Shown: positions 6,506 to 33,976 of the stretch, in pieces | How the letters are laid out: each line of letters opens with the position of its first letter | Numbering within the stretch: position 1 is the stretch's first letter | Assembly: GCF_026210795.1 (NCBI RefSeq) | Contig: NC_089446.1 | Span: 2,013,001 to 2,077,000, forward strand | Length of the DNA: 64,000 nt | Direction: 5' to 3' | Source of the DNA: Rhizophagus irregularis | Lineage: Eukaryota > Glomeromycota > Glomeromycetes > Glomerales > Glomeraceae | Position numbers and translations under genes: made by a program | Notes under the pieces: generated by a model | What the model was told of the DNA's origin: nothing | Databases searched by the model: none | Seen by the model: only the letters and a program-made list of their open reading frames with translations

Positions 6506-6943
6506 GTGATGAAATTTGTAATATTGAGTTGTAGAATACCAAATTTTATCAAATAAATTGTGATTGTATAATACCTGTGCATCATATTTTAGGTAAATTT
6601 GTACCAGTAAGTTACAAAATTTCAAATTGGCAAAATACAAGAGAGTACAGTCAACTCCCTCTATAGTCACTCCCGTTATAGTCACATTCTACTATATAGT
6701 CACACCAGTTGAATGTTCAAAACACTTTATTATTAAAATCTATCCTATATAGTCACAATCTATCTATAGTCACTATCACACCTATCCTCAAAAATCTTAT
6801 ATTAAAAAGAACCGTTTATAATCACGGTTATATAAAGAATATATTAAATAACTTGGCATCTAATAATCGTACAAAGATGTGTCATAGCTTGTTAGAATCG
6901 TCTCACTGAGACGAATCGAATGGTGGTAGTTTTATCCTTTTCC

Positions 6944-8880
6944 TTTGCTAATGTTTACGCCAGACCTCACCCATTGCCTCTTATGGAGACTAATCGGTCT
7001 GTGCCCTATCATCTTCAATGGGCAACCATTATACCGAGTTTAACGACCTCGTAACAGCACCATATAGAAGACATCTCCCATCGGGCCATTATAGGCTGAT
7101 CTGAAGCTAGGTACACGCCGCCTACTCATCCTATACCCATTGTACGATACTGATACTCAATTTATTTAACGACCTTTAGAGAGCATCTACTTTCATGGAG
7201 GGACTTTCGACAGGTAACATCAACCATCTAAGACTCTTCCATACCACCATTTTATGTGACAAGCCTCACTCAGCCACTACAGCCCGCGATTACCTAGCAC
7301 CGATAGTACAGTTGTTTACTCCCCAACCTGGTATACTTTCAGAGCTGACCACTGGACAGGAAGTAGCAGGCTTCTGTCCAGGATCGCATATGGTGGGTAT
7401 CGAACCCCATAACCATGCTACCTGTTCTGCGCACGAACACCTTGGTTGGTCTAAGACGAACAGAAGGTCAAACTACCACTAAGACATTGCACCCTCAGCT
7501 TTACCATCTAGGACGACCATCTAGCAATTACTGACCCCTTTAAGTGGTATCGTGGACACCACCTGAACAGGAAGCCCTCCCAGCGCATATAGTAGTGACC
7601 CCGCGACAGGACTGCGCATGGCCAATCGGCATAGGGAACGTTAGAAGGACACCATGACCCTTAGTTGAAATGTGCGGCCTAACCTTAGTACACACTAATT
7701 CACCATGATGCAGTCCAACTACACTAATCCCTGTACCTTCACGCTATTGGTTGTAGCGTCGCAGTAAATTCTTTTTATTTCCGTGGTCGTAGGAATCGAA
7801 CCTGCGACCTCACCATACTCGGCTTAATGAGGGTCTCAGTGACTAACCACCGAGATAGGTGGCCGACCAGCAGCTTTTATCCTTTTCCTTTGCAAGCCGT
7901 TTACGGCCAGACCACCATTGCCTCCCGCGTACTAATCTCGGGTCTAAGGCTCCTATCATCTTCAATGGGCAACCATTAAACCGCACTTAATTCCTCAGGT
8001 AACAGCTCCACTATGAAGACATCCCCCATCGGGCCATTTTAGGCCGATCCCTGGTTTGCCTGAGCACACGCCGCCTACTCATCCTATACCCATTGCACGA
8101 TACTGATACTCAATTTATTTTACGACCTTTAGAGAGCATCAACTTTCATGGAGGACTTTCGACAGGTAACATCAACCATCTAGTACCCTTCCATACCACC
8201 ATTTTAGATGTACCTAAGAATCCACCCATTTCAAAGGCCACTACAGCCCGCGATTACCCAGTACCGATAGTACAGTTGTTTACCCCAAGTAGTATACTTT
8301 GTAGTGACCACTCAGACAGGAAGTAGCAGGCATCTGTCCAGGATCACCCCTTATGGTGGGTATCAACCACCAGGGATCACCAACCAGGACCCAAGGAGTA
8401 GGGAATCGAACCCTATAGCCACCCGTTCTGTTAAATGCACGAACACTTTGGTTGGTCTAAGACCTAACAGAAGGTCAAACTACCACTAAGACATTGCACC
8501 CTCAGCTTTACCATCTAGGACGACCATCTAGCCATTACTGACCCCAAGTGGTATCGTAGAGTGACCACCTGGACAGGAAGTCCCCTCCAAGGTATAGTAG
8601 TGACCTCGGGACAGGACTGCGCACATACTAATGGCCTCATAGGGAACGTTAGAAGGACACCATGACCCTTAGTTGAAATGTGCGGCCTAACCGTACACAC
8701 TAATTCACCATGATGCAGTCCAACTACACTAATCCCTGTACCTTCACGCTATTGGTTGTAGCGTCCGCAGTAAAATTCTTTTTATTTCCCGTGGTCATGG
8801 GAATCGAACCTGCGACCTCACCATACTCAGGCTTAATGAGGGTCTCAGTGACTAACCACCGAGATAGGGTGACCAACCCT
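6944..8880 (-). mobile_element. Dimeric tRNA-derived SINE-like insertion
   Basis: Two diverged tandem units (6944-7871 and 7889-8880, about 0.93 and 0.99 kb) sit inside the pogo-like element. The whole insert is flanked by an exact 16-bp duplication, AGTTTTATCCTTTTCC (6928-6943 and 8881-8896). The second pogo-like copy has the empty site, with this word once. Read on the minus strand, each unit has two RNA polymerase III B-box-like motifs, GGTTCGATTCC or GGGTTCGATACCC (about 7396-7406, 7793-7803, 8402-8413, 8810-8821). A 16-bp duplication and tRNA-like promoters fit SINE retroposition. The unit junction (7872-7888) carries almost the same word as the target duplication. No convincing protein is encoded; open frames inside differ between the units. 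Confidence 0.7.
8797..8877 (-). other. tRNA-like head of the SINE-like unit
   Basis: The minus strand reads from GGTCACCCTATCTCGGTGG to GCAGGTTCGATTCCCATGACC. It has a near-consensus B box, an A-box-like GGTGGTTAGTC, and GGTCA/TGACC ends that could pair. The middle loop is too long for a normal anticodon arm, so this is a tRNA-derived promoter rather than a working tRNA. A second version lies at about 7785-7865. Confidence 0.55.
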
Positions 8881-9034
8881 AGTTTTATCCTTTTCCGATC
8901 ACTGGCTGACGAGTTATTCAACAAAATGTTAAACATCGGCATTATAATATTTCTTGATTTACGTTTACTGCGCCATTTAACATTTTGCTAGATTTCTCGG
9001 TACCTAGTGATTGTAAAAAGATGATTTATAGCTC

Positions 9035-9400
9035 GTTGGAATCGCCTCATCGAGACGAATCGAATGGTGGTAAGCTCATCTCTCTGTGATCAATATTGAC
9101 GAAGTTATTACTTAAAAACCATTTAATATTTTTTAATTTCGGAAATTGATCTAGTGATTGGATTTCGATGTATTTTATACCATTAGATTCGTCTCATCAA
9201 GACGAATCGAATGGTAGTAAGATCGACTTTCTAGGATCAATATTAACAGAGTTATCACACAAAAACCATTAATATTTTTTTAATTTCGGAAATTAATCTA
9301 GTGATTGGATTTCGACGTATTTTATACCATTAGAACCGTCTCATCAAGACGAATCGAATGGCGGTAAGATCATCTCTCTACGATTAATATTGGTGAAGTT
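9035..9400. repeat. Subrepeats inside the pogo-like element
   Basis: Three spaced copies of a word like CGTCTCATCAAGACGAATCG followed by AATGG(T/C)GGTAAG, about 155 bp apart. Between them come ATTAATATTTTTTAATTTCGG and CTAGTGATTGGATTTCG. The same array is inverted in the copy at 26.9-27.3 kb. Confidence 0.6.
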
Positions 9401-9732
9401 ACGATACAATAAAGGTTTAAGTATAATTCTGGCTAAAATTATGTTAATTTTTGGCCGGAATTATGATATACAAATATAAGAAATTTTTTATATAGTCACA
9501 TCTCTTTATAATCACCAAATATGGACTGTCCCAAATGTGTGACTATAAAGAGAGTTGACTGTATTTAGCTATAAATCCAGTTAGTAGAAAATATCAATTA
9601 TAAACTTATAAGTTTTAGACATAAATTTATAATAAATTAAGTAATTAACTATAAATTTGATGTTGATTTTTTCTGAATTTCTGAATTTTAATGACAAATC
9701 ATATTTTCAAAAGTTAATTTTAATGACTTTTT

Positions 9733-15052: not shown

Positions 15053-16906
15053 TCATAAAAAGTTAATTGAAACAATTGAAAAATTACCAGATGATTAATT
15101 AAAATCTACTGTTTATTTACTTAATACTATGCATTATTTAAAAAGACCAAATCAGAGTAATTTATTTTCACCATTTCTACAAAATAAAGCTCTGGATTTT
15201 GTAAACTCCTCTCTTTACAGAGCAGATCAAAACTCAAGTTCATTGATTCAAAACAATAAAACACTTCAAAAGCAAATAACTAAATTAAAACATTCTAATA
15301 CTAAAAAAAATCATAAAATTAGATAACTAATAAGTTCATTATCACAATATAAACACAAGCATCACTAATATATATCAAAGTTCATGTTACAGCTCGTAGG
15401 TTAATTTACAACCTCTTAAAGAATCTATTAAAGCAATGATTATGAAAAATAAATCACAATACACAAATGAGTTTATCAACATAGTAATACAAATTTCTCA
15501 AATAGGCCAAATTTCTTTTTGAAGTACAGTTCAAGCCACACAATATTTTTAATTGGAAAAAGGTCACTACTATTAAAATAATAATCTATTATTTGTTGGA
15601 ATAAAGAGATTAGTGATGCATGTAAATAAAATTTTTAATCAGAGTAATACCTTTAAATTTTACTCCTTTGGCAATTGGCATAATGGTAAATAAATCAATT
15701 TGAAGTTAACAAAAAATTTTTGTTCTTTGTATTATATTCTGGAATAATAGAACAAATACTCCTGATTTTCGATTACTTAAAATGAGGAATTTAGATTGTT
15801 GTACTGGAAATTCTGTTGTATAAGCAATATATGGCATTTTTAAATATTTTAAAATAAAATTTTACTAATGCTTGACTTTTGTATCTGATAATACAAATTA
15901 CATAAGTAGCCCAGTAAAAAGTCCTGTACTGAATTCATATTAGGTTTGTATTGAATTTATACATGAGCCCGTTTGGTATGAAAAATTGGACCATAAATGG
16001 GATAAAAGTAAAATAAATATGGCCAAATTTTATACCGAATAGGCTCATTTCATAATTGGCCTATATTTGGTACAAGAACTTTTTACTGGGTAGTAAAACT
16101 GGAGGAGCAGTGGTACTATTTAATAAATTAACTGGAGCTGAATCTTATCAGATTTCTTGTAGTCTATATGTAGTGTATATTATTATGAATAATTTTGAAA
16201 AAGTATGTTTTGGAAAATTATCTAGTATAAGTAGATTTTACAAAAGAAGCTTCCTGCAAACTTACTTTATTTAACTGGAAACTTCATGATGACTATAACA
16301 AAAGTAATAAAGAAACTCCTAATTCTAATCATGTTTGTATACTTTATCAAGAAAGAATTCAATATAAACTACCTAAATATTAATAATCAATTAGATTCAG
16401 ATGGCTTTATGAATTGACATATGCAGAACAATATCTGAAACATGAAGAAACATATATATAATTTGTTAATTAATTTTTACCTTATCTTAAATCTCAAAAA
16501 AATACATAAAAGACTTATATTAAAAAATGGAAGTTATTTGAAACTTGGCTTCATGATCTATTCCTTAATATTCAAATTAAGGTTTTAATTCATTTTGGCA
16601 AAAACTTTTATCGACCTTTTGTAAAATTTGTTACTGGATATAATCAGATGTCAATTTTTGTGATTTGAATAACAATGTAACTAAAAAATATTGTTGAAAA
16701 TCCCTATCATTTTTTTGAAAATGAGCTTTTAAAAAGTACTAATTTATTAAATAATAATCAATTTAATGAACTTAAATAAAAATTGAACTAGATACATAAA
16801 AAGTATTAGAACTTCACCAAAAATAATTAAATTGTTAGTTACATTTATCACTAAGTATTTGTCAATTAGGTGAAAAACATGGACATAATTATCTCTACTT
16901 TCACTT
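15053..16906 (+). other. Body of the decayed gene between insertions
   Basis: No intact gene. It holds only the protein-like scraps described for the pseudogene starting at 14429. The longest open pieces are about 65-72 codons. Confidence 0.5.
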
Positions 16907-18260
16907 AAAGCTCCGCATGAGCCGGTTTAAGCCGAGCCACAGTCTGGCTCAGCTCAGCTCGAAAAAAAATTCTGTCTGCAGTAATAAGCCGAACCATAAA
17001 AATTTCGCTACCCCCTGTTCAAAGGCAGTTGGCCGAGCCATTTTCGAGCATGGCTCGAGCCAAGCCAGGCTCGAGCTTTATCTTCAGAAAAACGTTTCGC
17101 AACATTTTTTTATTAAAGAATTAAAAAAAATGTTGCAAAACGTTTTTTTCTAAAATAATATTGTGAAAAAAACGTTTTCGCAACGTTTTTTTATTAAAGA
17201 ACTTAAAAAAACATTGCGAAACGTTTTTTTCTAATATAATATTGTGAAAAAAACGTTTTCGCAACGTTTTTTTACTAAAGAATTTAAAAAATGTTGCGAA
17301 AACGCTTTTTCTAAAATAATATAGTGAAAAAACGTTTCACAACGTTTTTTACTAAAGAATTAAAAAACGCTGCGAAACGTTTTTTCCAATATAATATAGT
17401 GAAAAAAACATTTTCGCAACGTTTTTTATTAAAGAACTTAAAAAAACGTTGTGAAATATTTTTTTCTAAAATAATATAGTGAAAAAAGCGTTTTCGCAAT
17501 GTTTTTATTAAAGAACTTAAAAAAAACGCTGCAAACGCTTTTTTTCCAATATAATATAGTGAAAAACGCCGCAATGTTTTTATTAAAGAATTTAAAAAAC
17601 GTTGCAAAATGTTTTTTTCTAAAATAATATAGTGAAAAAAACGTTTTCGCAACGTTTTTTACTAAAGAATTAAAAAAAACGTTGCGAAATGTTTTTTTCC
17701 AATATAATATAGTGAAAAAAACGTTTTCGCAACGTTTTTTTATTAAAGAACTTAAAAAAACGTTGCGAAACATTTTTTTCTAATATAATATAGTGAAAAA
17801 AATGTTTTCACAACATTTTTTTATTAAAGAATTTAGAAAAACGCTGTGAAACATTTTTTCTAATATTAGATAATGAAAAAAACGTTTTCGCAACGTTTTT
17901 TTACTAAAGAATTTAAAAAAACGTTGCGAAACATTTTTTTCTAAAATAATATAGTGAAAAAAATGTTTTCGCAACGTTTTTTACTAAAGAATTAAAAAAA
18001 ACGTTGCGAAACGTTTTTTTTAATATAATATTATACAAAAAACGTTTTCGCAACGTTTTTTGTATGATAACTCAAGCCAGCTCGAGCTTTTTGAGCCAAG
18101 CCTATTACTGGCTTGAGCTTTTTGAGCTGAGCCTATCACTGGCTCGAGCTCATTTCAAGCTGGCTCGCGAGCCACTGAGCCAATTTAATTGTGGCTCAGC
18201 TCGGCTCAGATTGAAAAGCTCAAGCCAGCTCGTAAGCCGGCTCGGCTCATGCGGAGCTTT
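16907..18260. mobile_element. Minisatellite-cored TIR element (MULE-like), GAGCC type
   Basis: Termini AAAGCTCCGCATGAGCCG and CGGCTCATGCGGAGCTTT, flanked by exact ACTTTCACTT (16897-16906 and 18261-18270). A 9-10-bp duplication suggests a Mutator-like transposase. The outer ~170 bp on each side are dense in GAGCC/GGCTC words, strikingly GC-rich for this sequence. The core (about 17090-18065) is a palindromic AACGTT minisatellite. Short open frames across the core are by-products of the repeat. Inserted in the decayed gene at 14.4-19.1 kb. Confidence 0.85.
17090..18065. repeat. Palindromic AACGTT minisatellite array
   Basis: About a dozen units alternate GCAACGTTTTTT-TTAAAGAA-TTAAAAAA with CGTTGCGAAACGTTTTTTCT-AATATAATATAGTG. 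Each unit can fold on itself. Units differ mainly by CG changing to TG or CA, and by T/A run length. Confidence 0.85.
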
Positions 18261-18438
18261 ACTTTCACTTCGAGAATTATGTTATGCAAAATTTATTGAA
18301 GCAGATATTAGTAGCAAAGGAATTAATGATTTTATTATCCAAAAGCTAAAATGAATTTTAAAGCAATTTACAAATTAAGAAATAATTTTTATGATTTTTT
18401 CAAGATATTTGAATTCATTAAATATTGCATTTGATATA

Positions 18439-18843
18439 CAGTTAACCCTTGTTATAACAAACTCTAGGGTCCAGACTATACATATAGCCAAAACCTCTAT
18501 AAAGCTGAATAGAGTTTTGGACTTTCAGTAATTTAATTATAATAAATTATTAAAAACTATTTAGAAATCCATCTGAAACTCCAAAGACTTTATATTATAG
18601 TTTCAGCTAGATGTAGAGATTAATTTTTATCATTTTTTAACTTAATTTTGATTTAAAGACGTGTTCAAAAATCACGTGAAAAGGTTTCAGCTACAAGTAT
18701 AGTCCAAACTTCAACTTCGCTATAAGACTATAGTGAAGATTTTAAGAGATTTGATTAGTTAATTCGTTATAATGAGGGGAAATTTATTATAATTGTCTGA
18801 AAAATTTACTATATTAAGGGTTCGTCATATCAAGGTTTGACTG
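18439..18843. mobile_element. pogo-like MITE, 405 bp
   Basis: Ends CAGTTAACCCTTGTTATAAC and, inverted, CAGTCAAACCTTGATATGAC, flanked by TA (18437-18438 and 18844-18845). Diverged from the pogo-like family at 6.6 and 26.8 kb but with the same CAGT(T/C)AA-type start. Inserted in the tail of the decayed gene. Confidence 0.75.
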
Positions 18844-19140
18844 TATTGTTATTCATCAACAATATGTAGAAGATTTTTTTAACAAATAGAATTTTAAAAC
18901 ACATCAAAATATGATAAATAGCTTTCAACAATTAAAACTTCAACTGTCTACTACTTCCTTTACTAAAATTAAATGTTTCCTTTTTTGATTTAATGAAGTT
19001 TAGAACTAAAAAACATCAAACTTTAAATGAAATAACTTCTCTTTATAACCAAAATTTTAATGAAAAAAGTGATAATAAAGATCAAGACCTTGAACAAAAA
19101 GCAAATATATTGTTTAAGAGATTATTTGACCGAAAATAAT

Positions 19141-20150
19141 TTTAATTTTATATATTATAAAATAATATAAATATTATATACAAATATTCTATTATTTTAT
19201 GTATAATTATTCCAGTTTTTTAATTCTAATTGTTGTATAATATTAAAAAATCTCCATTATCTAAATTTTAATAGTTAACTGATATAAGTTTAATTAATTA
19301 ATTGGTATACTACCCTAACATCATGGTATTTTGTAATTTTATAGTTTAGTAAATCAAAAAAATTAGTATTCCCATTGATCACTCCACAATAGTATATATA
19401 ATTCATGCAAATAAAAACTAATAAGATAATTGTAATTAAGATATAATATCTAATTATAAAATGATAAATAAAAAAGTTAGATTAATCAGTTGTATAGCAA
19501 AAGTTATTTTTTATTAAATTATGAATAGTATCATATTAGTTATTATAGTCCTATTATATAAAAGTGACAGAGTTAAAATTAAAGCTAATGTATTTTTCAT
19601 CAAATATTTATTATAGCACAATATAAAAAATATGAACAATACTAAAAATCTTTAGTTTTTCTAAGATAATCTACCACCAAATATATAAAAACTGTCTATA
19701 TATAAAGAAAATAAAACAGAAATGAAGAAATAAAAATAAAAGATAAAACTATAATAATCAGTTTATAAAAAATTAAAAAAAGAAAATTTTTATATAATTT
19801 CAGTAAAACTGAAATTGATATCTTTGTCTCAATATTTCAAGGTTTTAGGTGTATATAGATTAAAAAAGATGATGCTAAATGTATTATCCATCCATAGTTT
19901 AAACTATTCAATATACTATTAGTTTCAATAAAATGCCAAATCTGAAATACAAAATTATAATTATACTGAAATAGAAGAATTGTTTTGAATCAGTAATTGA
20001 CTATAAAGAGAATGGTAATGCTTGAAATGTAACTAAAAAATATTCAATAAAAAGTGTAAACAGGTCTAAAAGTATTTATATAATAGATTTCTGGAAAGAA
20101 TTATTCATTTCCATTTTAGAAAAAGTTTTAAGTATAAGAAAATTAGAATT
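19141..20150. other. AT-rich spacer
   Basis: No supported gene or structured repeat. Confidence 0.5.
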
Positions 20151-21533
20151 AAAGCTCTAATCGAGTCAGTTCTAATCCGACAACCCGGACTGAAAATTCG
20201 GATTGGTCCAGTCTGGGTTGATGCTTTAATCCGGACCAAAATATTTGGTCTGGTCTGGTCCGGTTTCAGATTATAAATCTAACCCAGGCTGAAAAAATGG
20301 GTTGGAACTGGATCAGACTGATAAATATTTTCGCAATGGTTTATATTAAAACCGTTGCGATTATTTAATTATTAAATAAAAAAATGTTGCGTAACATTTT
20401 TTTTAACATATTATTATAAAAAAAACGTTTGCATAATGTTTTTTTAATTAATTTAAAGAAAAAATGTTGCGCAACATTTTTTCTAAGTATATTTATTAAA
20501 AAAAACGTTTGCGCATCATTTTTCTAATTAGTTTAAAGAAAAAACATTGTGAAACATTTTTTCTTATCATATTTAATTAGAAAAAATATTTGTGCAATGT
20601 TTTTCTAATTAGTTTAAAGAAAAAATGTTGCGAAACGTTTTTTCTTATCATATTTAATTAGAAAAAATGTTTGCGCAATATTTTTCTAATTAGTTTAAAG
20701 AAAAAATGTTGCAAAACGTTTTTTCTTATTATATTTAATTAGAAAAAACATTTGCGCAATGTTTTTCTAATTAATTTAATGAAAAAATGTTGCAAAACGT
20801 TTTTTCTAAGTATATTTATTAAAAAAAACGTTTGCACAATGTTTTTCTAATTAGTTTAAAGAAAAAACGTTGTGAAACATTTTTTCTTATCATATTTAAT
20901 TAGAAAAAACGTTTGCGCAATGTTTTTCTAATTAGTTTAAAGAAAAAACGTTGCGAAATGTTTTTTCTTATCATATTTAATTAGAAAAAATGTTTGCACA
21001 ACATTTTTCTAATTGGTTTAAAGAAAAAACGTTGCGAAACATTTTTTCTTATCATATTTAATTAGAAAAAACGGTTGCACAACATTTTTCTAATTGGTTT
21101 AAAGAAAAAATGTTGCAAAACATTTTTTCTTATTATATTTAATTAGAAAAAACATTTGCGCAATGTTTTTCTAATTAGTTTAAAGAAAAAACATTGCGAA
21201 ACATTTTTTCTTATCATATTTAATTAGAAAAAACGTTGGCGTAATGTTTTTCTAATTAATTTAACAAAAAAATGTTGCGAAATGTTTTTTCTAAGTATAT
21301 TTAATTAGAAAAAACGTTTTCGCAACATTTTTCTAATTAACTTAACGAAAAAATGTTGTGAAACGTTTTTTCTAAGTAATTGCAACGTTTTTTTATTATA
21401 GGACCGGACTGGATTGGACCAAAATAACTGGTCTGGTCTGATCTGGTCTCAGATTCTCCTTTTAATATAAACCGGACCAGACCGAAATGAACTAATTTTT
21501 CAGTCTGGTCTCAGGTTACTCTTCAACCCGTAG
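20151..21533. mobile_element. Minisatellite-cored TIR element, CCAGACC type, right end truncated
   Basis: Starts AAAGCTCTAATCGAGTCAG and matches the reverse complement of the right end of the 23047-25287 element over at least 120 bp. The right side matches that element up to ACTCTTCAA(T/C)CC and then leaves homology, so the terminal ~30 bp and any target duplication are lost. Subterminal blocks are rich in GGTCTGG/CCAGACC. The core is an AACGTT-type palindromic array of about 81-bp units. Confidence 0.75.
20320..21400. repeat. Palindromic minisatellite, about 81-bp unit
   Basis: Roughly twelve units built from AAAAAACGTTTGCGCAATG, TTTTTCTAATTAGTTTAAAG, AAAAAACGTTGCGAAACAT and TTTTTCTTATCATATTTAAT. 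Variation is concentrated at CG dinucleotides (CG/TG/CA). Confidence 0.85.
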
Positions 21534-22341
21534 TAGATGAAGAAAGAGCCTGCCAATAGATAGTAATAGTATCATTAAGACCTAAATTATAAGCTATTTA
21601 TAAGTGTGATAAAAGTACTTTAACTCATTCAAAAGCATTTTCTTATTCTTATTCTGTCTTTCTTTCTACTTTTCAGTTAGTACTGCTAATAAATTATGGA
21701 TTTTAGCTCAAAAAACACAAAAAATCTTAATAAAAACTAAAAAAAAGGGTTTTAATAAAGTAGGGGTATTTAAAGTATATTATATTAAGAAAAAATAAAA
21801 AAAATAAAAAAATATTTTTTTCAAAAATATGGTTTTCCTATAGCATAGGGAAAGTTTGTTTTTATTGGTTATAATCAATGTATATCACGTTATTATGATT
21901 GGCTAAATAAAATAATACGTGATAATACTACACGTATTACAAATCATCCTATGAGTCATTTTCAACTCATCTGTAGGGGTTTTAACTATTCAATATGGTC
22001 CAAAAAAATCATGGCCCATATTTAGTATGAAATTGTAATAATCAAGTGATTCGTTTTCTTTAATTCATTTCATTAGCATATGAGAAAGCTCAAAAAAAAA
22101 AAAAAAGAAACATATAAATATACATATCTAATAATTAGACAACAATTGTGTCATAGTCATTATATGAGTATTGTTGAACTTTACGATACTCAAAAGTTAG
22201 AAGTTCTTTTTTTTTTAGAACCAGATAAAGAAAATTCAAATCATAAATATTAAAATGATTGAAAATTAAATTTTTTTATAACTAATTTTTTATTTATTAC
22301 ATACAAAATCAAAAAGCAATTCATTTACCAAGTAGGTTACT
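21534..22341. other. Spacer
   Basis: AT-rich, with a few poly(A) runs. No supported gene. Confidence 0.5.
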
Positions 22342-23524
22342 ATGCTTACAAAGGTTCCATATGAGTGGCATGGTAATTTAAAGCTTAATCCTATCCATTT
22401 TAAACAAATGATAGAAAAAGCAGACCCATATTTATAAGGTCTTTTTGATAAATTAGTAAAGGCATTAGTTTCTGATAAAAAATCTGTATATAATAAAGTT
22501 GAAGCAAGAAAAACAATTGTAAGTCTATGTTATATCATGGCTGAAATGTAAAATAAGTTTATTAATGATTTCAAGTTAGAAATTGGATTATATTTATCAG
22601 TATTGGATGCAACATGTGTTGCAATTAATACAATAAATAGTATTGGATTTTCTGCTTATTATATAATAGTTAATAATTTTAAACATAAAATTGCCAATGA
22701 ACATTCATTAAATATCAGAAAATTTCTCTCTGAACATGTAAGTAAAAAAATATATTTTTTTTTTATTTGAAGAACTACTATTAACCAAAATTTAATTACC
22801 AATCAGAGTGACCATTTGTACGTTTATAATCTAAATAATTATCATGATATACATAAAAAAAGAAGACCAGATGCCATAACTTTATCTACTGCCAAACATA
22901 TGGCCACTTGAATCTGTAAGCAGGTTTCAGGTTGTGCACCAATACCTATTATTTTTAACAACGTGTCAGTTCATAATCTAGTAAATATTGATGCAAGCAA
23001 TAAATTAATTCAGGAATATCATGGAATATTTGATATTGCATATACTAAAGCTCTAAATGGTCTGGATTGATCCGGATTGAAGAGTAATCCGAGATCAGAC
23101 TGAAAAATTAGTTCATTTTGGTCCAGTTCAGTTTACATTAAAAAGAGAATCTAGGATCAGACTGGACTGGACTAGTTATCTTGGTCCAGTCCAGTCCAGT
23201 CCTATAATGAAAAAACATTGCACATTTTTTTTATAATAATATATTAAAAAAAAATGTTTTCGCAACATTTTTTCATTAAATTAATTAAAAAAATGTTGCA
23301 AAAATGTTTTTCTAATTAAAATTACTTTGAAAAAATGTTTCGCAACATTTTTTCATTAAATTATTATAGAAACGTTGCGAAAATATTTTTTCTATAATAA
23401 TATATTAAAAAAAAACGTTTTTGCAACATTTTTTCATTAAATTATTATAAAAACATTGCAAAAACATTTTTTCTATAATAATATATTAAAAAAAAATGTT
23501 TTCACAACGTTTTTTCATTAAATT

Positions 23525-23908
23525 TAAAGATGTAATATGTAATTATTTTTAAAAGGTTGTAAGGTTGCAACTATTACAACATACATACAACACTTTTGTT
23601 GTAATTACAACACAATATTATAATCGTTATATAGTATAATAATTACTACTAGTATTGTAATTATTATATAGTGTTGTAATTATTTCTAATTATACAAATA
23701 TGTATTATAATACATTAATCATTTTTTTTATAATAATATTTGTTTTATAAAAACTTATTTTTGTAATTTTTATTTTTCAAAAAGGAAATTTTTGAACAAT
23801 CATAAGTGTTGTAATATTACAACACTTTAACTTTAAAAGTAGTAATAGGTTGCAACCCTTATTATTACAACACAAAATAGTAATTATCAATTACATACTA
23901 CATCTTTA
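23525..23908. mobile_element. hAT-like MITE, 384 bp, 8-bp target duplication
   Basis: Ends TAAAGATGTAATATGTAATT and, inverted, TAAAGATGTAGTATGTAATT, flanked by ATTAAATT (23517-23524 and 23909-23916). Rich in TTGTAAT/ATTACAAC words. Inserted in the minisatellite core of the enclosing element. Confidence 0.8.
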
Positions 23909-23929
23909 ATTAAATTAATTAAAAAAATG

Positions 23930-24415
23930 TTGCAAAAACGTTTTTTAATTAAAATTACTTTGAAAAAACGTTTTTTTTAATTAAAATTACTTTGAAAAAA
24001 CGTTTTTTTTAATTAAAATTACTTTGAAAAAACGTTTTTTTTAATTAAAATTACTTTGAAAAAACATTTTTTTAATTAAAATTACTTTGAAAAAACGTTT
24101 TTTTTAATTAAAATTACTTTGAAAAAACGTTTTTTTAATTAAAATTACTTTGAAAAAACATTTTTTTAATTAAAATTACTTTGAAAAAATGTTTTTTTTA
24201 ATTAAAATTACTTTGAAAAAATGTGTTTTTTAATTAAAATTACTTTGAAAAAACGTTTTTTTAATTAAAATTACTTTGAAAAAACATTTTCTTAATTAAA
24301 ATTACTTTGAAAAAACGTTTTTTTTAATTAAAATTACTTTGAAAAAATGTTTTTTTAATTAAAATTACTTTGAAAAAATGTTTTTTTTAATTAAAATTAC
24401 TTTGAAAAACGTTTT
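23930..24415. repeat. 32-bp tandem array, about 15 copies
   Basis: Unit AATTAAAATTACTTTG followed by AAAAAACGTTTTTTTT, 31-33 bp, with (A)CG, (A)TG and (A)CA variants at the only CpG. Three or four more copies occur at 24545-24665. This simple array appears to be a locally amplified half of the longer palindromic unit. Confidence 0.85.
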
Positions 24416-24870
24416 GCAACATTTTTTCATTAAATTATTATAGAAATGTTGCGAAAACATTTTTTCTATAATAATATATTAAAAAAAAATGTTTTCACAA
24501 CATTTTTTCATTAAATTAATTAAAAAAACGTTGCAAAAACATTTTTTAATTAAAATTACTTTAAAAAAATGTTTTTTTAATTAAAATTACTTTGAAAAAA
24601 CATTTTTTTTAATTAAAATTACTTTGAAAAAACATTTTTTTTAATTAAAATTACTTTGAAAAACGTTTTGCAACATTTTTTCGTTAAATTATTATAGAAA
24701 TGTTGCGAAAATATTTTTTCTATAATAATATTTTAAAAAAAACGTTTTCGCAACATTTTTTCATTAAATTAATTAAAAAAAACATTGCGTAAACATTTTT
24801 TTATAACAATATATTAAAAAAATGGTTCACAACGTTTTTTTATTTAATAATTACAATCACAACGGTTTTA

Positions 24871-25044
24871 CAGCTATTTTCTAAATTATTAACTCCTCCC
24901 TGTTATTTTTAAAAAATTTTTCAGATACAGTCAGCCTGAATTACTGTGTCTGACGGCGTTTGACTGCGTCTAATTGCATCTGACTGTGTCTGAAAAATTT
25001 TTTAAAAATAACAGGAAGGAGGTCAATAATTTAGAAAATAGCTG
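24871..25044. mobile_element. Palindromic TA-flanked MITE, 174 bp
   Basis: Arms CAGCTATTTTCTAAATTATT and AATAATTTAGAAAATAGCTG pair almost perfectly through CAGATACAGTCAG / CTGACTGTGTCTG. TA lies on both sides (24869-24870 and 25045-25046). It is the innermost layer of the nest at 22.3-28.0 kb. Confidence 0.8.
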
Positions 25045-26770
25045 TATTATAAAATTATTGTGAAAATGTTTATTTAGTCCAATCCATAAAATTTGGTCTG
25101 GATTAGATTTATAATCTGAAATTAGACCAGACCGGACTGAATATTTTGGTCCAGATTAGATTTATAATCCGAAATCAGACCAGACCAGACTGAATATTTT
25201 GGTCTGAATTGAAACATCAACCCAGTCCTGACCAATCTGAATTTTTAGTTCAGATTGCCAGATTAGGACTGGACCGATTAGAGCTTTAGCATACACTAAT
25301 CGTAAAAAGTAATGGCTTATTAATGAACAATTAGCTATTGATACTTTTGATCAAATTGAACTACTCACAGTGCATTGTTATAATGATGCCATTGCTGAAT
25401 AAAAAGAAGAATGTTCAATGAAAGAAGTATGATTAATTGGGTTTCAAGAAAAGAATTTGCATTCTCTGAATGATTATGTAACAACATTACAAATGATCTT
25501 GGATATTAATAAAGATACTGAATACTTACAAAATCATATTGCACTATTAGTAGCAGATTGGCCTGGACAGTTATTTGTTCGTAAAGCAATAACAAATTTG
25601 CATAAGTTGGATTCACAATATTCAATACCAACTGGGATTAACTCATTTATTCCAATTTTAGGCCCTTTTCACATATCTCTAAATAGCAGAGAATATATAT
25701 TAATTATATATTATACCTTCTTTCAAAAACTATTTCATTTTGTATTTGGTAAAAGAAAAGTATTAGCAAAGAAACCCAAATCTTGAAAAATTAATTTGCT
25801 TCTTGATACTATTTTAACAAAATTTGAAAATACCTGTAAAGACATAGAATACCGTAAGGTTATTGACTTGTTGGATAATATAATTCCTGCAACTTTAGAT
25901 GTATATTTTATTCTTTTTTGATTTGGTTTATTCAATGAATATATAGAAACAATTTTTTAAAATTTGGACATTTACACTTAGATGGAAATGTCATAATTAT
26001 AATAAAGTACCATTAGCCTTCTTATCAGATAGTTTTTATTAGCAAGATACAAACCATCCATTTGCTGAAGCTGTAAAATTATTTTTAGTAAACTTTAATA
26101 ATTATTATCATATTTTTCCAAAATTAGTTACTTTTTTTTTACAAGGATTTCGGTTAAAAAACTTGGGAAGATGCTTAATTTTGAAAGTTTTTTTACTAGT
26201 ATTTTATATAAAAATCTTTTTATCAAAGTACAAAAAGTTGGTAGGGGTGCTTAATTTTGGGGGTGACTAATTTTAGAAAAATACAGTATGTTGAGAATAT
26301 GTATAGTAAAATAAGATCTTAAACACCAATGTTAACAATATAATAAAATAAGCTTATGTGATTAGTATTTTATTTTGCCAACTATTTTTTATTTCTATTT
26401 GTTGTTTTATGCAATATACACTTTTAACATTATTTAATCTTTATGTAAAGAACGAAACCATTGTAAATTTAAAGATACTTTTCAAAAAATAAAGGCATAT
26501 TCTTACAAGCCATCATTGTTAAACATTCTGGCAGAAAAAACATTATTATTTTTATTAGACTATTTTTAGAGAATTTTTAAGAATCATGGGAAAAGTAGTA
26601 AATTATATAAATCAAAGAAAAAGATACAATGTCAATTAGCTACCTTGAGAGAGACTGTTAATACAAATGTCTTCCAATAGAATACAATACAAATATGCCT
26701 TTATTGCCAAATTCTTGTGATCATTGCCGTAAAAAACTTGATGATGGCGAAGTATTGATTTGTGGGTATA

Positions 26771-27731
26771 CAGTCAACTCTCTTTATAGTCACACATTTG
26801 GGACAGTCCATATTTGGTGATTATAAAGAGATGTGACTATATAAAAAATTTCTTATATTTGTATATCATAATTCCGGCCAAAAATTAACATAATTTTAGC
26901 CAGAATTATACTTAAACCTTTATTGTATCGTAACTTCACCAATATTAATCGTAGAGAGATGATCTTACCGCCATTCGATTCGTCTTGATGAGACGGTTCT
27001 AATGGTATAAAATACGTCGAAATCCAATCACTAGATTAATTTCCGAAATTAAAAAAATATTAATGGTTTTTGTGTGATAACTCTGTTAATATTGATCCTA
27101 GAAAGTCGATCTTACTACCATTCGATTCGTCTTGATGAGACGAATCTAATGGTATAAAATACATCGAAATCCAATCACTAGATCAATTTCCGAAATTAAA
27201 AAATATTAAATGGTTTTTAAGTAATAACTTCGTCAATATTGATCACAGAGAGATGAGCTTACCACCATTCGATTCGTCTCGATGAGGCGATTCCAACGAG
27301 CTATAAATCATCTTTTTACAATCACTAGGTACCGAGAAATCTAGCAAAATGTTAAATGGCGCAGTAAACGTAAATCAAGAAATATTATAATGCCGATGTT
27401 TAACATTTTGTTGAATAACTCGTCAGCCAGTGATCGGAAAAGGATAAAACTACCACCATTCGATTCGTCTCAGTGAGACGATTCTAACAAGCTATGACAC
27501 ATCTTTGTACGATTATTAGATGCCAAGTTATTTAATATATTCTTTATATAACCGTGATTATAAACGGTTCTTTTTAATATAAGATTTTTGAGGATAGGTG
27601 TGATAGTGACTATAGATAGATTGTGACTATATAGGATAGATTTTAATAATAAAGTGTTTTGAACATTCAACTGGTGTGACTATATAGTAGAATGTGACTA
27701 TAACGGGAGTGACTATAGAGGGAGTTGACTG
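26771..27731. mobile_element. pogo/Tigger-like non-autonomous element, 961 bp (empty-site copy)
   Basis: Ends CAGTCAACTCTCTTTATAGTC and, inverted, CAGTCAACTCCCTCTATAGTC, with TA at 26769-26770 and 27732-27733. Inverted relative to the copy at 6648-9561 and nearly identical where compared, including an identical meaningless 66-codon frame (6709-6909 and 27470-27670). It lacks the SINE-like insert and so records the pre-insertion site. Inserted into the Cys-rich end of the decayed gene. Confidence 0.85.
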
Positions 27732-27987
27732 TAGTTATCATTTTAAGTATTATCAAATGATAGAATATGGTTGTCATCATTGTGACGAATACTACAAATG
27801 CAAAATTTATAGTAATGTGAACTCTTTCTTAGATCAATTAGAAAAGGGATCAAATGTTTTTACTTTTGATGAACAAGACAAAACTTCAACAGAAGAAAAT
27901 GAGACAGTGGAAGAAGTGGAAATAAATGGAAGCCAGGAAGTGCATACAGAACTTTTAATTGCACTTATTCATGTTAATACCTGGTGA

Positions 27988-28723: not shown

Positions 28724-29196
28724 GTTAAAAAGTTAACAAAATTTAATGTACTAGTTAACAAAAAAATAAATAAATAAATTAGTTATCTAAAAATTTATAT
28801 AATTTTTTATGCTTATATTAATTATGTCGATCGTGTGACACATGACAATGACAAAACCTAAAATTGTTATGAACTTTATAAAAACATAAGTGAGTGCGAT
28901 AAGAAACAAAACCATAAGTTGGATTTTTCAAAAATATAAAAGAAATTTATAAATAATTATAGGATATAATTAAAATTCTTTGCTAATAAGAGATTTCTTT
29001 GAGATAATTTTAATCGATACATATATGCTAAAATGAGGCTGAAATCTTTGAGGCTTTGATTGTGTTACAAAGCATTTTAATAAAAAAATTTATTTTGTAT
29101 TTGAACCCATAAGTGGATAATGCCTCGTTTCTTTTTTTAAACCACATTTTTTCTGTTTAAAAAATTTGGGAAATAATAAGTTAAATTTTTTTAATA
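28724..29196. promoter_or_regulatory. Upstream region of the first BTB gene
   Basis: AT-rich with a T-run (TTTCTTTTTTT, about 29127-29137) some 60 bases before the start codon. No specific element can be named. Confidence 0.3.
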
Positions 29197-30618
29197 ATGA
29201 CAGCTTCATCTAGACCAGATGCAAATCAAAATAATTCTCCGAGAGGAAAATCCTTAGAAAATGATTTAAAACAGCTACTTTATGATAAAAGGTTCTTTGA
29301 CATTAAGTTAAGATGTTCAGATGAAGTTGTCATAAATGCTTGTAAAGCCATCTTATCCAATCGTTGCAACGTATTTAATAATCTTATTTTTGATGAGTGT
29401 GGAAAAATTAATAATGATATTAAATTTTACGAAATTAATTCAACAGCAATGAATATTTTACTTGAATTTTTATATACTTCTAAAGTTGAAAAAGAAAGAT
29501 TAACAGTTGAAAATGTTGTTGAAGTTTATTATGCAGCAATATATTTTGAATTAGATGTTCTTCAGAAACGTATTATAGAATTTATTAAACAATCTTTGGA
29601 AGAAAGAGATGAAGATTTAGGGAAAAAACTTTTATCCCAATTTGTCGAAAAATTTTCCACAGATGCAGATAATGAGATGGCTCAGGTTTTGGTCGATTGG
29701 GTTGCAAAAATTAAATTAGTTCCTATAGATGACTCATTATCATTGTTTGGATTAAAATACCTTTTATGTAAGACTTTCAGAGTTAGAAAACCTTTTGCGA
29801 CTACAGAATTTTCTATCTGGGAATATGCCATGAATAAGGTTAAGAGAATAGTTATAAAGACAAATTCAACGATGCAAAATTATCCATTTAATATGGATTA
29901 TGAACCAAATGTAATTCAAGAAATTAAAGATCATTTAAAACCATTACTTCCTTATCTTGATTTGTGTCGAATGGAATCAAATGAAATCGCTGATTATGTT
30001 GAACCTTTGGATATTTTTCCTACACAGAAATTATTGGATACTTATCGTCGAATGTCTCAGCAGTCTCAGTCTCAGTCTCAAGGAAGTAGAAATTTGGAAA
30101 CGAATGAATTAGCATGTATTCGAGGAATTCCTATTTTTAGATGGATGTTGCAATCCGATGATACGAGTATAAACATTTCAAAAGATGGATTTAAACTTGA
30201 AGTTAACCAGCTGCAAAATTCTGTTAAATTTAGAACTGGAGATATCATTTTTAAAGGTAGCGGATTATATGAATGGGATATTGTAATCAAAAAATTGAGT
30301 AAAATTATTTATATTGGCATATGTAGTATTGATGAGGATGTTAATAAAAATGAAATAGATTATCATGGATATTGTGGGTGGGTTCTTGGTTCTGATGGTT
30401 ACGTTTATCATAAGAAAGACTGGAAATGGTATGATGCAAGATTTAAAGAAAGTGATATTGTTACCGTTCATTTAGATATGACAAAGAAATCATGTTCTTT
30501 CTCAGTTAATGGTATAAGACGACCAAATGTTTCCGAATGGACAAATATTTCTTCTGAAGTTCGTCCTGTTGTTTCAATAAGACAAAGTGGCAAGTTACAT
30601 GTACAACCTCATATTTAA
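29197..30618 (+). CDS. BTB-BACK-SPRY-like protein 1 (473 aa)
   Basis: Intronless. The ATG at 29197 is followed by a short Ser/Asn-rich leader and GKSLENDLKQLLYDKRFFDI, the entry to a BTB/POZ domain (about residues 30-125: DIKLRCSDE, NACKAILSNRCNVFNNL, LEFLYTSK, YYAAIYFELDVLQ). Residues about 135-290 form a BACK-like helical region (GKKLLSQFVEKFS, LVDWVAKIKL). Residues about 308-473 form a SPRY/B30.2-like beta domain (RGIPIFRW, GLYEWDIVI, IYIGICS, CGWVLGSDGYVYHKKDWKW, CSFSVNG). BTB proteins of this build commonly act as Cullin-3 substrate adaptors, with the C-terminal domain binding the target; that role is inferred. First of five tandem paralogues on the + strand. Confidence 0.88.
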   Translation: MTASSRPDANQNNSPRGKSLENDLKQLLYDKRFFDIKLRCSDEVVINACKAILSNRCNVFNNLIFDECGKINNDIKFYEINSTAMNILLEFLYTSKVEKERLTVENVVEVYYAAIYFELDVLQKRIIEFIKQSLEERDEDLGKKLLSQFVEKFSTDADNEMAQVLVDWVAKIKLVPIDDSLSLFGLKYLLCKTFRVRKPFATTEFSIWEYAMNKVKRIVIKTNSTMQNYPFNMDYEPNVIQEIKDHLKPLLPYLDLCRMESNEIADYVEPLDIFPTQKLLDTYRRMSQQSQSQSQGSRNLETNELACIRGIPIFRWMLQSDDTSINISKDGFKLEVNQLQNSVKFRTGDIIFKGSGLYEWDIVIKKLSKIIYIGICSIDEDVNKNEIDYHGYCGWVLGSDGYVYHKKDWKWYDARFKESDIVTVHLDMTKKSCSFSVNGIRRPNVSEWTNISSEVRPVVSIRQSGKLHVQPHI

Positions 30619-32374: not shown

Positions 32375-32481
32375 ATGAACCATTTACCGCTGAATTTGGT
32401 AAGTATATATATATTTCTTTTTTGAAAAAAAAATCGTATAAAAAAATCGATTAAACAACTTAAAAAATATTTTTTTTTTAG
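32375..32481 (+). promoter_or_regulatory. Putative 5'-leader intron and overlapping uORF
   Basis: An upstream ATG at 32375 opens eight codons up to a strong donor GTAAGT at 32399. A T-rich acceptor TTTTTTTTTAG ends at 32481, eleven bases before the BTB ATG. If spliced, the short upstream frame runs over the main ATG in another frame and stops just after it. Such an overlapping uORF would lower or gate translation. Inferred from splice signals alone. Confidence 0.4.
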
Positions 32482-32491
32482 CCAAATAATA

Positions 32492-33976
32492 ATGGCATCT
32501 CAATCTGATAACCCTCCTAATCCACCTAATTCATCTAATTCATCCCAACCTTCTCCCCAACCAAAATCTTTAGAAGGTGATTTGAGAAAATTATTATATG
32601 ACGAAAGATTTTATGATATTTCTTTAAAATGTTCGGATAACATTGTATTAAATGCTTGCAAAAATATTTTGGCAAGCCGTACTGAAGTATTTAATGAATA
32701 TATCTTTGATAAATCAAAAAAAAACAATGCAAATCAACAACGACAACAATTAGAGTTTGATAAAGTTAACTCAATAGCGATGAAACTTATTTTAGAATAT
32801 TTATATACTTCAAAGAATGAGAAAGAAACTTTAAGTGTTTCTAATGTTATAGAAGTTTATTATGCTGCAATTTTTTTCAAATTAGATGACCTACAGAATG
32901 ATATAATTGAATATACTATGAAAATTTTAAGAGAAGGTGATAAAACAGATGAAACAATAACTTATGGGACCGAAGAATTGAACGAATTGGCAAAAAAACT
33001 TTTATCAGAATTTATCGAAAAATTTTCATTAGATGTGAATAATGACATGAGTAAATTATTAGTTGATTGGGTAGCTAAAATACAGCTTTTCCCTGATAAT
33101 GCTGATGGTGATTCATTATCATTAATGGGACTTCAACATCTTCTAAATAAGACGTTTGAAACCAAAGATCAATTCGCTACTTATGAACTTACTCTTTTCG
33201 AATATACTCTAGTCAAAACTAAACATATTATATTAGAAGAGAAGACTGGCTCAAAAAAGCCTTATGATATGAATTACGATTCAAATGTGATCGAAAGAAT
33301 TAAGGATCGTTTAATGCCATTACTTCCATTTATTGACTTACGCATAATAGATCCTGATGATGTTGTATTAAAACTCGAACCTTTAAAATTATTTCCACAA
33401 GAAATGATTACAAATGCTTATCGTTATAGGATAGAAAAAAAGCACGAACTGCTTCAACCTATACGCGGTCGGATAACTTTTAGATGGAAATACGAATTCG
33501 AAGGTAAAGAATCTAAGGAATCCAAAAACCCACCTCCGCCCCCAATTATAACCAACAACGGATTTACCGTAGAAGTTGATTCAAATATTAAAAATTACCA
33601 ATCTATAATGGGAGATTTAGTTATCAAAGGTAACGGAATTCATAAGTGGGACATTTCAGTTGAAAATTTAAATGATACTATTTATATTGGAATATGTGGT
33701 AAAGATGAGAAATTTGATAAACCTGGGGATAAAACTTATCAATATGGATGGGCACTCGGTTCGGATGGCTATGTTTATAATAAGAGAGATTGGAAATGGA
33801 ATAACGCCAAATTTACAGTAGGCGATGTGGTTAATATTACCGTAGACATGACCGCTAAACATTGCTATTTTAGTATAAATAATCAAACTTTTTACGAAGT
33901 TATTGGTCATGCTTTTCCTGATGAATTATATCCTTTTGTTTCATTAAACAAGGGTGGTAAATTACATATAAAATAA
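32492..33976 (+). CDS. BTB-BACK-SPRY-like protein 2 (494 aa)
   Basis: Start ATG at 32492 after a T-rich acceptor-like tract. A Pro/Ser/Asn leader (PPNPPNSSNSSQPSPQPK) precedes KSLEGDLRKLLYDERFYDI. The BTB domain is about residues 38-150, with an NANQQRQQ insertion in the middle and LEYLYTSKNEKETL. The BACK-like region is about 150-310 and has an extra acidic loop (EGDKTDETITYGTEE). The C-terminal SPRY-like domain is about 325-494 (GRITFRW, GIHKWDISV, IYIGICG, YGWALGSDGYVYNKRDWKW, CYFSINN). Its SPRY wording is closest to the next gene downstream, which points to a recent tandem duplication between the two. Intronless coding part; an upstream leader intron is possible. Confidence 0.88.
   Translation: MASQSDNPPNPPNSSNSSQPSPQPKSLEGDLRKLLYDERFYDISLKCSDNIVLNACKNILASRTEVFNEYIFDKSKKNNANQQRQQLEFDKVNSIAMKLILEYLYTSKNEKETLSVSNVIEVYYAAIFFKLDDLQNDIIEYTMKILREGDKTDETITYGTEELNELAKKLLSEFIEKFSLDVNNDMSKLLVDWVAKIQLFPDNADGDSLSLMGLQHLLNKTFETKDQFATYELTLFEYTLVKTKHIILEEKTGSKKPYDMNYDSNVIERIKDRLMPLLPFIDLRIIDPDDVVLKLEPLKLFPQEMITNAYRYRIEKKHELLQPIRGRITFRWKYEFEGKESKESKNPPPPPIITNNGFTVEVDSNIKNYQSIMGDLVIKGNGIHKWDISVENLNDTIYIGICGKDEKFDKPGDKTYQYGWALGSDGYVYNKRDWKWNNAKFTVGDVVNITVDMTAKHCYFSINNQTFYEVIGHAFPDELYPFVSLNKGGKLHIK

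Follow-up and report, generated by a model that had tools for sequence, protein, structure and literature searches.

Homologous palindromic satellite cores are carried by hAT transposons of five end families in Rhizophagus irregularis. We analyzed a stretch of 64,000 nucleotides from this genome (C18:2013001-2077000, hereafter the window; the genome spans 146.7 Mb in 32 contigs), which holds three elements, E1, E2, and E3. AACGTT-type tandem arrays, delimited with Tandem Repeats Finder (TRF), make up most of each. We show that E1 to E3 are non-autonomous hAT transposons and not Mutator elements. It is very probable that they and their relatives are Ds2-like hAT elements carrying inherited filler, a satellite of ~80-bp units. 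A preliminary description, made from the letters of the window alone, had noted that two terminal types (GAGCC and CCAGACC) hold the same kind of core. This is borne out, and in our sample homologous cores span five families of ends: I (GAGCC), II (GGTCC/AGACC), III (TAGGGATGGCAACGGTC), IV (TAGGGTTGGATYRGTCC), and V (TAGGGCTCYGATC).

Repeats make up about half of the R. irregularis genome, and some two-thirds of its transposable elements had no classification until recent curation (PMC11075540; here and below, statements on cited papers refer to excerpts of them). A visible class of AT-rich hairpin arrays is now assigned to hAT by its tips, its duplication length, and one coding partner. The system is a natural test case for the separation of cores from ends in transposons. 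If the core is a shared module, families defined by their interiors and families defined by their ends would conflict, a point of relevance to the annotation of repeats.

Family I and II loci were mostly fetched via their ends, with an E1 query that included the first core bases, and family III to V loci mostly via the core pattern. The lists of ends hold about 100 places each and the core list 100 of 637 matches, so that the genome census covers contigs C1 to C4 and the first 0.8 Mb of C5. Family IV comprises three loci (L024, L054, and L059), as does family V (L053, L061, and L062). At L053 the ends and the duplication (CCGATCAT) were read by eye and stand outside the list of 39 elements used below; at L062 one end was read.

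Results

Tips, duplications, and target sites identify hAT elements. Transposons of the hAT superfamily have short terminal inverted repeats (TIRs) with YARNG tips, and the tips of families I to V, TAAAG and TAGGG, fit this pattern. A YARNG filter was used in one search only, and families I and II came from searches that did not apply it. Inverted TAAAGCTC tips bound E1 (16906-18261), a complete family I element with tips TAAAGCTCCGCATGAGCC, and E3 (23046-25288), a family II element; window positions are given without strand unless one is named. The AAAGCTC termini of the preliminary description are thus shared inverted tips, although the true tip is one base longer. Once this terminal T/A is counted as part of the element, the reported target duplications of 9-10 bp become 8 bp: CTTTCACT on both sides of E1 (16898-16905 and 18262-18269), and GCATATAC (23038-23045) and GCATACAC (25289-25296), which differ by one mismatch, around E3. 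The apparent 10-bp duplication of E1 is 8 bp plus one extra base on each side. Just outside the duplications the bases are A (17 of 39 elements) and T (19 of 39), so that the extra bases reflect chance or a weak flank preference.

Duplications of 8 bp are the rule across the sample. Among 47 nearest facing end pairs of the same family, taken from the window and the fetched loci, 39 are flanked by an 8-bp duplication with at most one mismatch. The mismatches fall into two groups, with none in 34 pairs, one in 5, two to four in no pair, and five to seven in 8. The resulting list of 39 elements admitted only duplications with ≤2 mismatches. When flanks were deliberately mis-paired (n = 1,482), none matched perfectly, 3 had one mismatch, and 15 had two. 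Three of the eight pairs without a duplication are not real (two extra left matches at L015, and the left end of E2 facing the right end of E3), which leaves five real ones, at L015, L016, L020, L037, and L040. An insertion site at L030 gives direct evidence of the duplication: two unoccupied paralogues have a single CACATATT and the occupied copy has two.

Position 2 of the target sites is T in 29 of the 39 elements, including all 15 of family III, and position 7 is A in 20. Hermes inserts into 8-bp nTnnnnAn sites (PMC2803484, PMC10368747). Duplication length, target preference, and tips therefore all place these elements in hAT. The core-bearing copies also resemble satellite-bearing miniature inverted-repeat transposable elements (MITEs), having TIRs, no coding capacity, and tandem repeats as most of the body. 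Core motifs are present in 37 of the 39 TIR-bounded elements, many of which were fetched via the core. Against the 1-kb MITE limit used in PMC11075540, E1 to E3 are too long, while family III copies (~0.5 kb) fall below it.

The core has a fixed palindromic architecture. Each unit of ~80 bp consists of a 17-bp box, AACGTTTTCGCAACGTT, and its reverse complement in fixed register. In families I to V, the distance from a plus box to the next minus box is mostly 36-40 bp and that from minus to plus mostly 41-44 bp; with this common spacing, the families share register and not only composition. The E1 core contains 15 boxes, compared with 0.0 in 50 mononucleotide shuffles, and no box was found in the 55,600 window bases outside the E1-E3 region. 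The architecture also appears when the box is ignored. In a box-blind test of 20 elements (17 obtained via their ends, and the three of the window), 19 had a TRF array with a period of 74-88 bp, and 18 of the 19 consensus units held both boxes at an offset of 37-39 bp. These units match the box at 12-17 of 17 letters, whereas shuffles reach a maximum of 11-12.

Variant boxes occur at two loci. The array at L057:671-4375 is 3.4 kb long and has 43 units; one box has the sequence CCGTTTCGCAACGG, which differs in both arms and preserves the dyad symmetry. The tips at this locus (TARTGTTCCAAA) are alike in 11 of 12 positions, lack a duplication, and are probably a further pair of tips. Another hairpin array, L062:960-1400, adjoins a family V-type end and has the same architecture built on another box, AACGTCGCACTTGACGTT.

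The decoupling of cores from ends runs both ways. Unit identity between families is 0.74-0.76 compared with 0.52-0.53 after shuffling; this comparison ignores unit orientation, which could only lower the similarity. The ends behave differently. Scored against 3-mer shuffles, the similarity of I to III (z 0.5), of II to III (z 1.5-1.9), and of V to III (z 1.4; 1.7-3.5 against plain shuffles) is not clearly above the shuffled level. Other ends are related, strongly for III and IV (z ~10) and for II and VI (z 8-10), and weakly for II and IV (z 3-4) and for II and V (z 2-4). Family VI (L042:2276-3438, duplication TTCGCAAC/TTCACAAC) combines II-related ends with a quite different core. Thus, one core occurs with unrelated ends, and the related ends of II and VI enclose different cores. 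This pattern suggests that the middle of a transposon can have a history of its own, apart from that of the ends.

A second palindromic core, with a unit of ~147 bp (GATTCGTCTC...GAGACGAATC), lies in the window at 9039-9401 and 26931-27293, within mariner-like elements, and in the family VI element at L042:2276-3438. The mariner-like and the hAT-like family VI copies of this core are 81-84% identical over 49-58 bp. Matches to it were also found at eight other fetched loci, and those in L029 and L031 cover nearly the full length.

Arrays are inherited with their elements. In an orientation-aware comparison, the nearest unit outside a unit's own element belongs to the same end family in 159/159 cases for family I, 46/47 for II, and 28/29 for III, so that the core subtype follows the end family for 233 of 235 units. 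Identity across elements of the same family is 0.83-0.89, depending on the part (families I to III), and identity inside one element is 0.85-0.87 (I), 0.84-0.91 (II), and 0.78-0.85 (III). This near-equal likeness within and between elements shows that arrays were inherited with the copies rather than regenerated. The earlier idea that the array is regenerated in each element is therefore not supported; in family I, identity is 0.83-0.86 between elements and 0.85-0.87 within them. Local re-amplification also occurs, as in a 32-bp sub-array of E3.

The alternative idea, that the array is a module spreading between elements, fares differently by family. For families I to III, the 233 same-family units leave room for an old event only. 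The mixed arrays of families IV and V fit exchange, albeit in few elements: in the L054 core (family IV), two of three tiles are nearest to family V, and one unit of L053 (family V) is 0.91 like family III. Within family IV, the cores of L059 and L024 are 94% identical. Judged from these unit comparisons, the sharing of the core between families appears to predate the present copies.

Most multi-hit core loci have recognizable ends nearby. The core motif CGCAACGTTTTTT occurs 637 times genome-wide, compared with 21 times for the reversed pattern, and marks 51 loci in the census region (21 with multiple hits and 30 with one). A family I to III end lies within 2.5 kb and in the right direction at 14/21 multi-hit and 4/30 single-hit loci. 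Four further multi-hit loci belong to families IV and V (L059, L053, L061, and L062, the last with one end only). Within the census region, the outcome is mixed for the possibility raised beforehand, that core units sit mostly outside TIR-bounded elements: it does not fit the multi-hit loci but may fit the single-hit loci, 26 of which were left unplaced.

Conversely, ends occur without the exact core. Among 20 exact family III end pairs on C1 to C4, 8 enclose the exact core motif and 12 do not, which indicates that many copies are core-less or decayed; one more pair, the 21st, is on C5, outside the stretch that the core list covers. Ends of types I and II each have at least 42 genome matches. 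Tip patterns match 154 times for type I (≤2 mismatches), 239 times for type II (≤1), and 383 times for type III (≤1), and their reversed-pattern controls 0, 3, and 0 times, respectively.

A core-less coding element shares the ends of family I. L063 (C4:3982386-3986880; 4,495 bp) has type I tips and the duplication CCAAGAGC, and its right end is 87% identical to that of E1 over 183 bp. On one strand, in separate open pieces, it encodes a zf-BED domain (E 1.5e-7) and a Dimer_Tnp_hAT domain (E 6.8e-6), both above the Pfam cut-offs. No core motif was found in it. Given these ends and domains, family I non-autonomous copies keep the ends of their partner while satellite replaces the gene. An L063-like core-less element thus likely encodes the putative mover of family I copies. 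The preliminary description had pointed to a MULE (Mutator-like element) transposase as the autonomous partner; the sole coding copy that we read, L063, has hAT domains instead, although no search for MULE families was made.

The BED-exon of L063 has 17 genome matches. At C4:3983898 (L063 itself), C30:2879303, and C32:1795604, a type I end in the same orientation is 1.51, 1.59, and 1.54 kb away, respectively; for the others, no type I end is so placed among the matches listed. A first look across the genome gave 835 candidates for the hAT dimerization domain, and all 150 of those scored matched, which indicates a genome rich in hAT-like genes. Candidate hAT domain matches also lie near ends of two other families: type II, at a distance of 2.4 kb (C7:5243197-5245814), and type III, at 1.7 kb (C4:1014459-1016359). 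By a rough hand estimate, one such pairing for each type would be close to what chance gives.

Two long elements were considered as autonomous partners and set aside. The 4,053-bp element at L030 holds a nested Harbinger-type element (DDE_Tnp_4) inside its family I core; this insertion, at about 827-3905 of L030, has inverted ends of its own (GGGGATCTTCACAAAA/TTTTGTGAAGACCCC). L064 (3,994 bp, family III ends) has a single frame of at least 90 amino acids, which is of low complexity and 99 amino acids long; no Pfam search of it was run.

Box CpG sites decay faster than the rest of the core. In box-blind alignments within arrays, the mismatch rate at box CpG sites is 0.171 in family I and 0.195 in family II, compared with 0.039 and 0.058 at non-CpG box sites and 0.068 and 0.066 in spacers. 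Substitutions at these CpG sites are nearly all C>T or G>A (179/184 in family I and 58/59 in family II). Core CpG cytosines are probably methylated and decay to TpG/CpA by deamination, to judge from this pattern. Transposon loci of R. irregularis are known to carry DNA methylation (PMC8647823), and CpG decay in the arrays may serve as a methylation record.

Arm pairing shows no sign of selection. A 182-nt piece of the E1 core is predicted to fold strongly as RNA, with a z of -8.2. A hairpin function at the RNA level was rejected on arm compensation: arms of the same unit differ at 4.41 positions and arms of different units of one element at 4.34 (n = 249, P = 0.58). Together, the lack of compensation and the core-less coding copy favor filler, and the core is most likely satellite filler in Ds2-like hAT elements.

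Discussion

The elements can be explained by a Ds2-like organization. Ends of ~170-200 bp, each with a YARNG tip and arrays of subterminal motifs, would be recognized by transposase and would surround filler DNA. A hAT transposase from a core-less element such as C4:3982386-3986880 likely moves family I, with its BED finger as the probable reader of the GAGCC arrays. Cut-and-paste insertion would account for the 8-bp duplications that we observe. The interior would be filled by a satellite of ~80-bp units, each with two inverted, CpG-bearing 17-bp boxes. This satellite may amplify locally by slippage or unequal exchange, for which the 32-bp sub-array of E3 offers an example, and would then be copied with the element, as the near-equal divergence within and between elements supports. 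By the time the present copies spread, several hAT end lineages may already have carried the core or exchanged it. Likely routes between lineages would be gap repair in which the template switches, or nesting and a subsequent deletion.

Several observations weigh against the Ds2-like filler model. Same-orientation box neighbors at 30-50 bp break the alternating register in families I (20), II (38), III (5), and V (3). Position A7 of the target consensus is only moderately conserved, at 20/39 overall and 6/15 in family I. A coding partner was read for family I only and none for families II to V; the middle exons of L063 have no Pfam match over the cut-off, and one middle exon and the last exon have no sequence match in PDB, so that the RNase H-like catalytic domain with DDE residues expected of a hAT transposase did not show up in these searches. 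No recognized ends were found at the core arrays of L056 and L060, and 26 of the 30 single-hit core loci have no family assignment. Finally, boxes are conserved at 0.72-0.84 between families and spacers at 0.64-0.84 (mostly 0.64-0.76), and in family I the box positions other than CpG are less variable than the spacers (0.039 and 0.068), neither of which pure filler would lead one to expect. The box-over-spacer signal is itself weakened, because box-based detection inflates conservation and the family II values are close (0.058 and 0.066).

How the core came to be shared can be read in two ways, both plausible if each somewhat short of probable. Few elements bear on the choice and a heterogeneous ancestral array could mimic exchange, so that we regard vertical descent and exchange as equally likely. 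Under vertical descent alone, a single ancestral element already bore the core, and its ends diverged to suit different transposases while the core stayed. The match of core subtype to end family in I to III (233/235 units) speaks for such descent, as do the ends that are still related (III-IV at z ~10, II-IV at 3-4, and II-V at 2-4) and the 94% identity of the L059 and L024 cores. It is harder to reconcile with the I-III, II-III, and V-III ends, which are not clearly above shuffles despite homologous cores, and with family VI, in which II-related ends (z 8-10) enclose a core like the ~147-bp unit. The L054 core, with two of its three tiles nearest to V, and the L053 unit that is 0.91 like III also count against it. 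Horizontal spread of the core between end families, through gap repair, template switching, or nested insertion plus deletion, would instead produce decoupling in both directions, with one core between unrelated ends and different cores between the ends of II and VI. The mixed arrays of L053, L061, and L054 are in line with such spread, and nested insertions are present in L024, L042, L030, and E3. However, the sample contains no recent transfer among families I, II, and III, and the three mixed arrays could reflect unequal amplification of a heterogeneous ancestral array.

Explanations that give the box a function, or the elements another superfamily, are less probable than the Ds2-like filler model. 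The box is unlikely to be under selection as a cis-acting site or hairpin that promotes the transposition or survival of non-autonomous copies. Its register and sequence outlast the spacers between families, and the E1 core piece is predicted to fold strongly (z -8.2), but the transposase-coding family I copy lacks the box, arm pairing is not kept by compensation (4.41 and 4.34 mismatches, P = 0.58), and 12 of the 20 exact family III end pairs on C1 to C4 lack the exact core motif. Equally doubtful is a scenario in which the AACGTT array is a transferable selfish module of unrelated hAT systems, retained because the box array helps its carriers. Were it true, the help might lie in host-factor recruitment or in shaping methylation and replication, and the ~147-bp core of mariner-like and hAT-like elements would be a second such module. 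Mutator-like elements, to which the agreement of the E1 flanks over 10 bp had pointed, are now highly improbable. MULE target duplications are 9-11 bp long, a length that the 8-bp duplications at 39 of the 47 end pairs do not fit. The 8-bp duplications, target preference, YARNG tips, and hAT coding partner all contradict a MULE origin and refute it for family I.

Among known systems, maize Ds2 of the Ac-Ds family is the closest parallel. It too is a hAT element with 8-bp duplications and unrelated filler inside, and ~200 bp at the ends of the autonomous element are retained, including subterminal hexamer repeats to which the transposase binds (PMC3260210). The filler described here differs in being a tandem palindromic satellite that is homologous in several end families, and the motif arrays are GAGCC, GGTCC/AGACC, or GGTCGG rather than AAACGG (PMC3260210). 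Hermes shares the 8-bp nTnnnnAn sites and has N-terminal BED domains that read subterminal repeats; it is, however, an autonomous insect element with ends of ~450 bp, and no satellite core is mentioned in the excerpts (PMC10368747, PMC2803484).

Satellites inside other transposons provide further comparisons. The Xenopus elements miDNA4 and Xstir hold satellite monomers in varying copy number inside a MITE, for which capture and expansion were proposed (PMC9659126, PMC12628747). miDNA4 is a Tc1/mariner MITE, however, and sharing across unrelated end families is not stated in the excerpts (PMC9659126, PMC12628747). Coral CMITEs are of piggyBac type, and their interior is not described in the excerpt as an 80-bp palindromic tandem array (PMC2872659). 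Crassostrea gigas Helitrons carry central tandem repeats between conserved end boxes and occur with both element-bound and standalone arrays, but they are rolling-circle elements in which, on our reading, two sets of end boxes surround eleven satellites, the converse of our main case (PMC8268682). Coral CMITEs and Xenopus miDNA4 are thus related cases, and what is new here is one palindromic core in five hAT end families. A literature search over titles and abstract openings, with most subscription papers outside its reach, did not find this core in Rhizophagus, and the palindromic core is not mentioned in the excerpts of PMC8647823, PMC10234402, and PMC11075540.

Other features of the window

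E1 consists of three parts. The left end region (16906-17087, plus strand) holds 7 GAGCC/GGCTC motifs and the right end region (18062-18261, minus strand) holds 10. Between them, the core (17088-18061) comprises 12.3 copies of an 80-bp palindromic unit by TRF and accounts for 974 of the 1,356 bp of the element.

E2 and E3 depart from this simple plan. E2 (20150-21530) is a family II element with a complete left end, a cut or degraded right end, and a core of 12.3 copies of an 81-bp unit (20379-21373, TRF). Of the three TIR elements originally described, E1 and E3 are tip-bounded and all three are mostly array, but in E2 neither an intact right tip nor a target duplication was found. Similarity of its right end to the right ends of L010, L013, and L014 stops 27-29 bp before the tip, at about 21528-21530. 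A weaker alignment (79%) to the left end of E3 extends to 21549, 4 bp before the tip, and given this alignment the right tip of E2 may be degraded rather than cut off.

E3 is a nest in which one insertion splits the core and a second sits at its right edge. The first part of the core (23224-23524) has 3.7 copies of an 81-bp unit by TRF. It is followed by a nested inverted-repeat (MITE-like) insertion at 23524-23909, with 21-bp arms at 23524-23544 and 23889-23909. The secondary array (23915-24669, TRF) has 22.9 copies of a 32-bp unit that is like part of the 80-bp unit, and it is overlapped by the last part of the core (24405-24853; ~80-bp unit, TRF). The second nested inverted-repeat insertion spans 24869-25046.

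Neighboring open frames at 29185-30618 and 32426-33976 encode BTB and SPRY-like domains. In the first frame, the match to SPRY falls short of the Pfam cut-off. Two mariner-like copies in opposite orientation lie at 26768-27733 and 6646-9564; their inverted ends are of the CAGTCAACTC type, and TA is present at either border. Identity between these copies is 100% over 685 and 298 bp. Within the left copy lies an interruption of ~1.9 kb, a GC-richer repeated sequence that has a 16-bp direct repeat, AGTTTTATCCTTTTCC, at its bounds.

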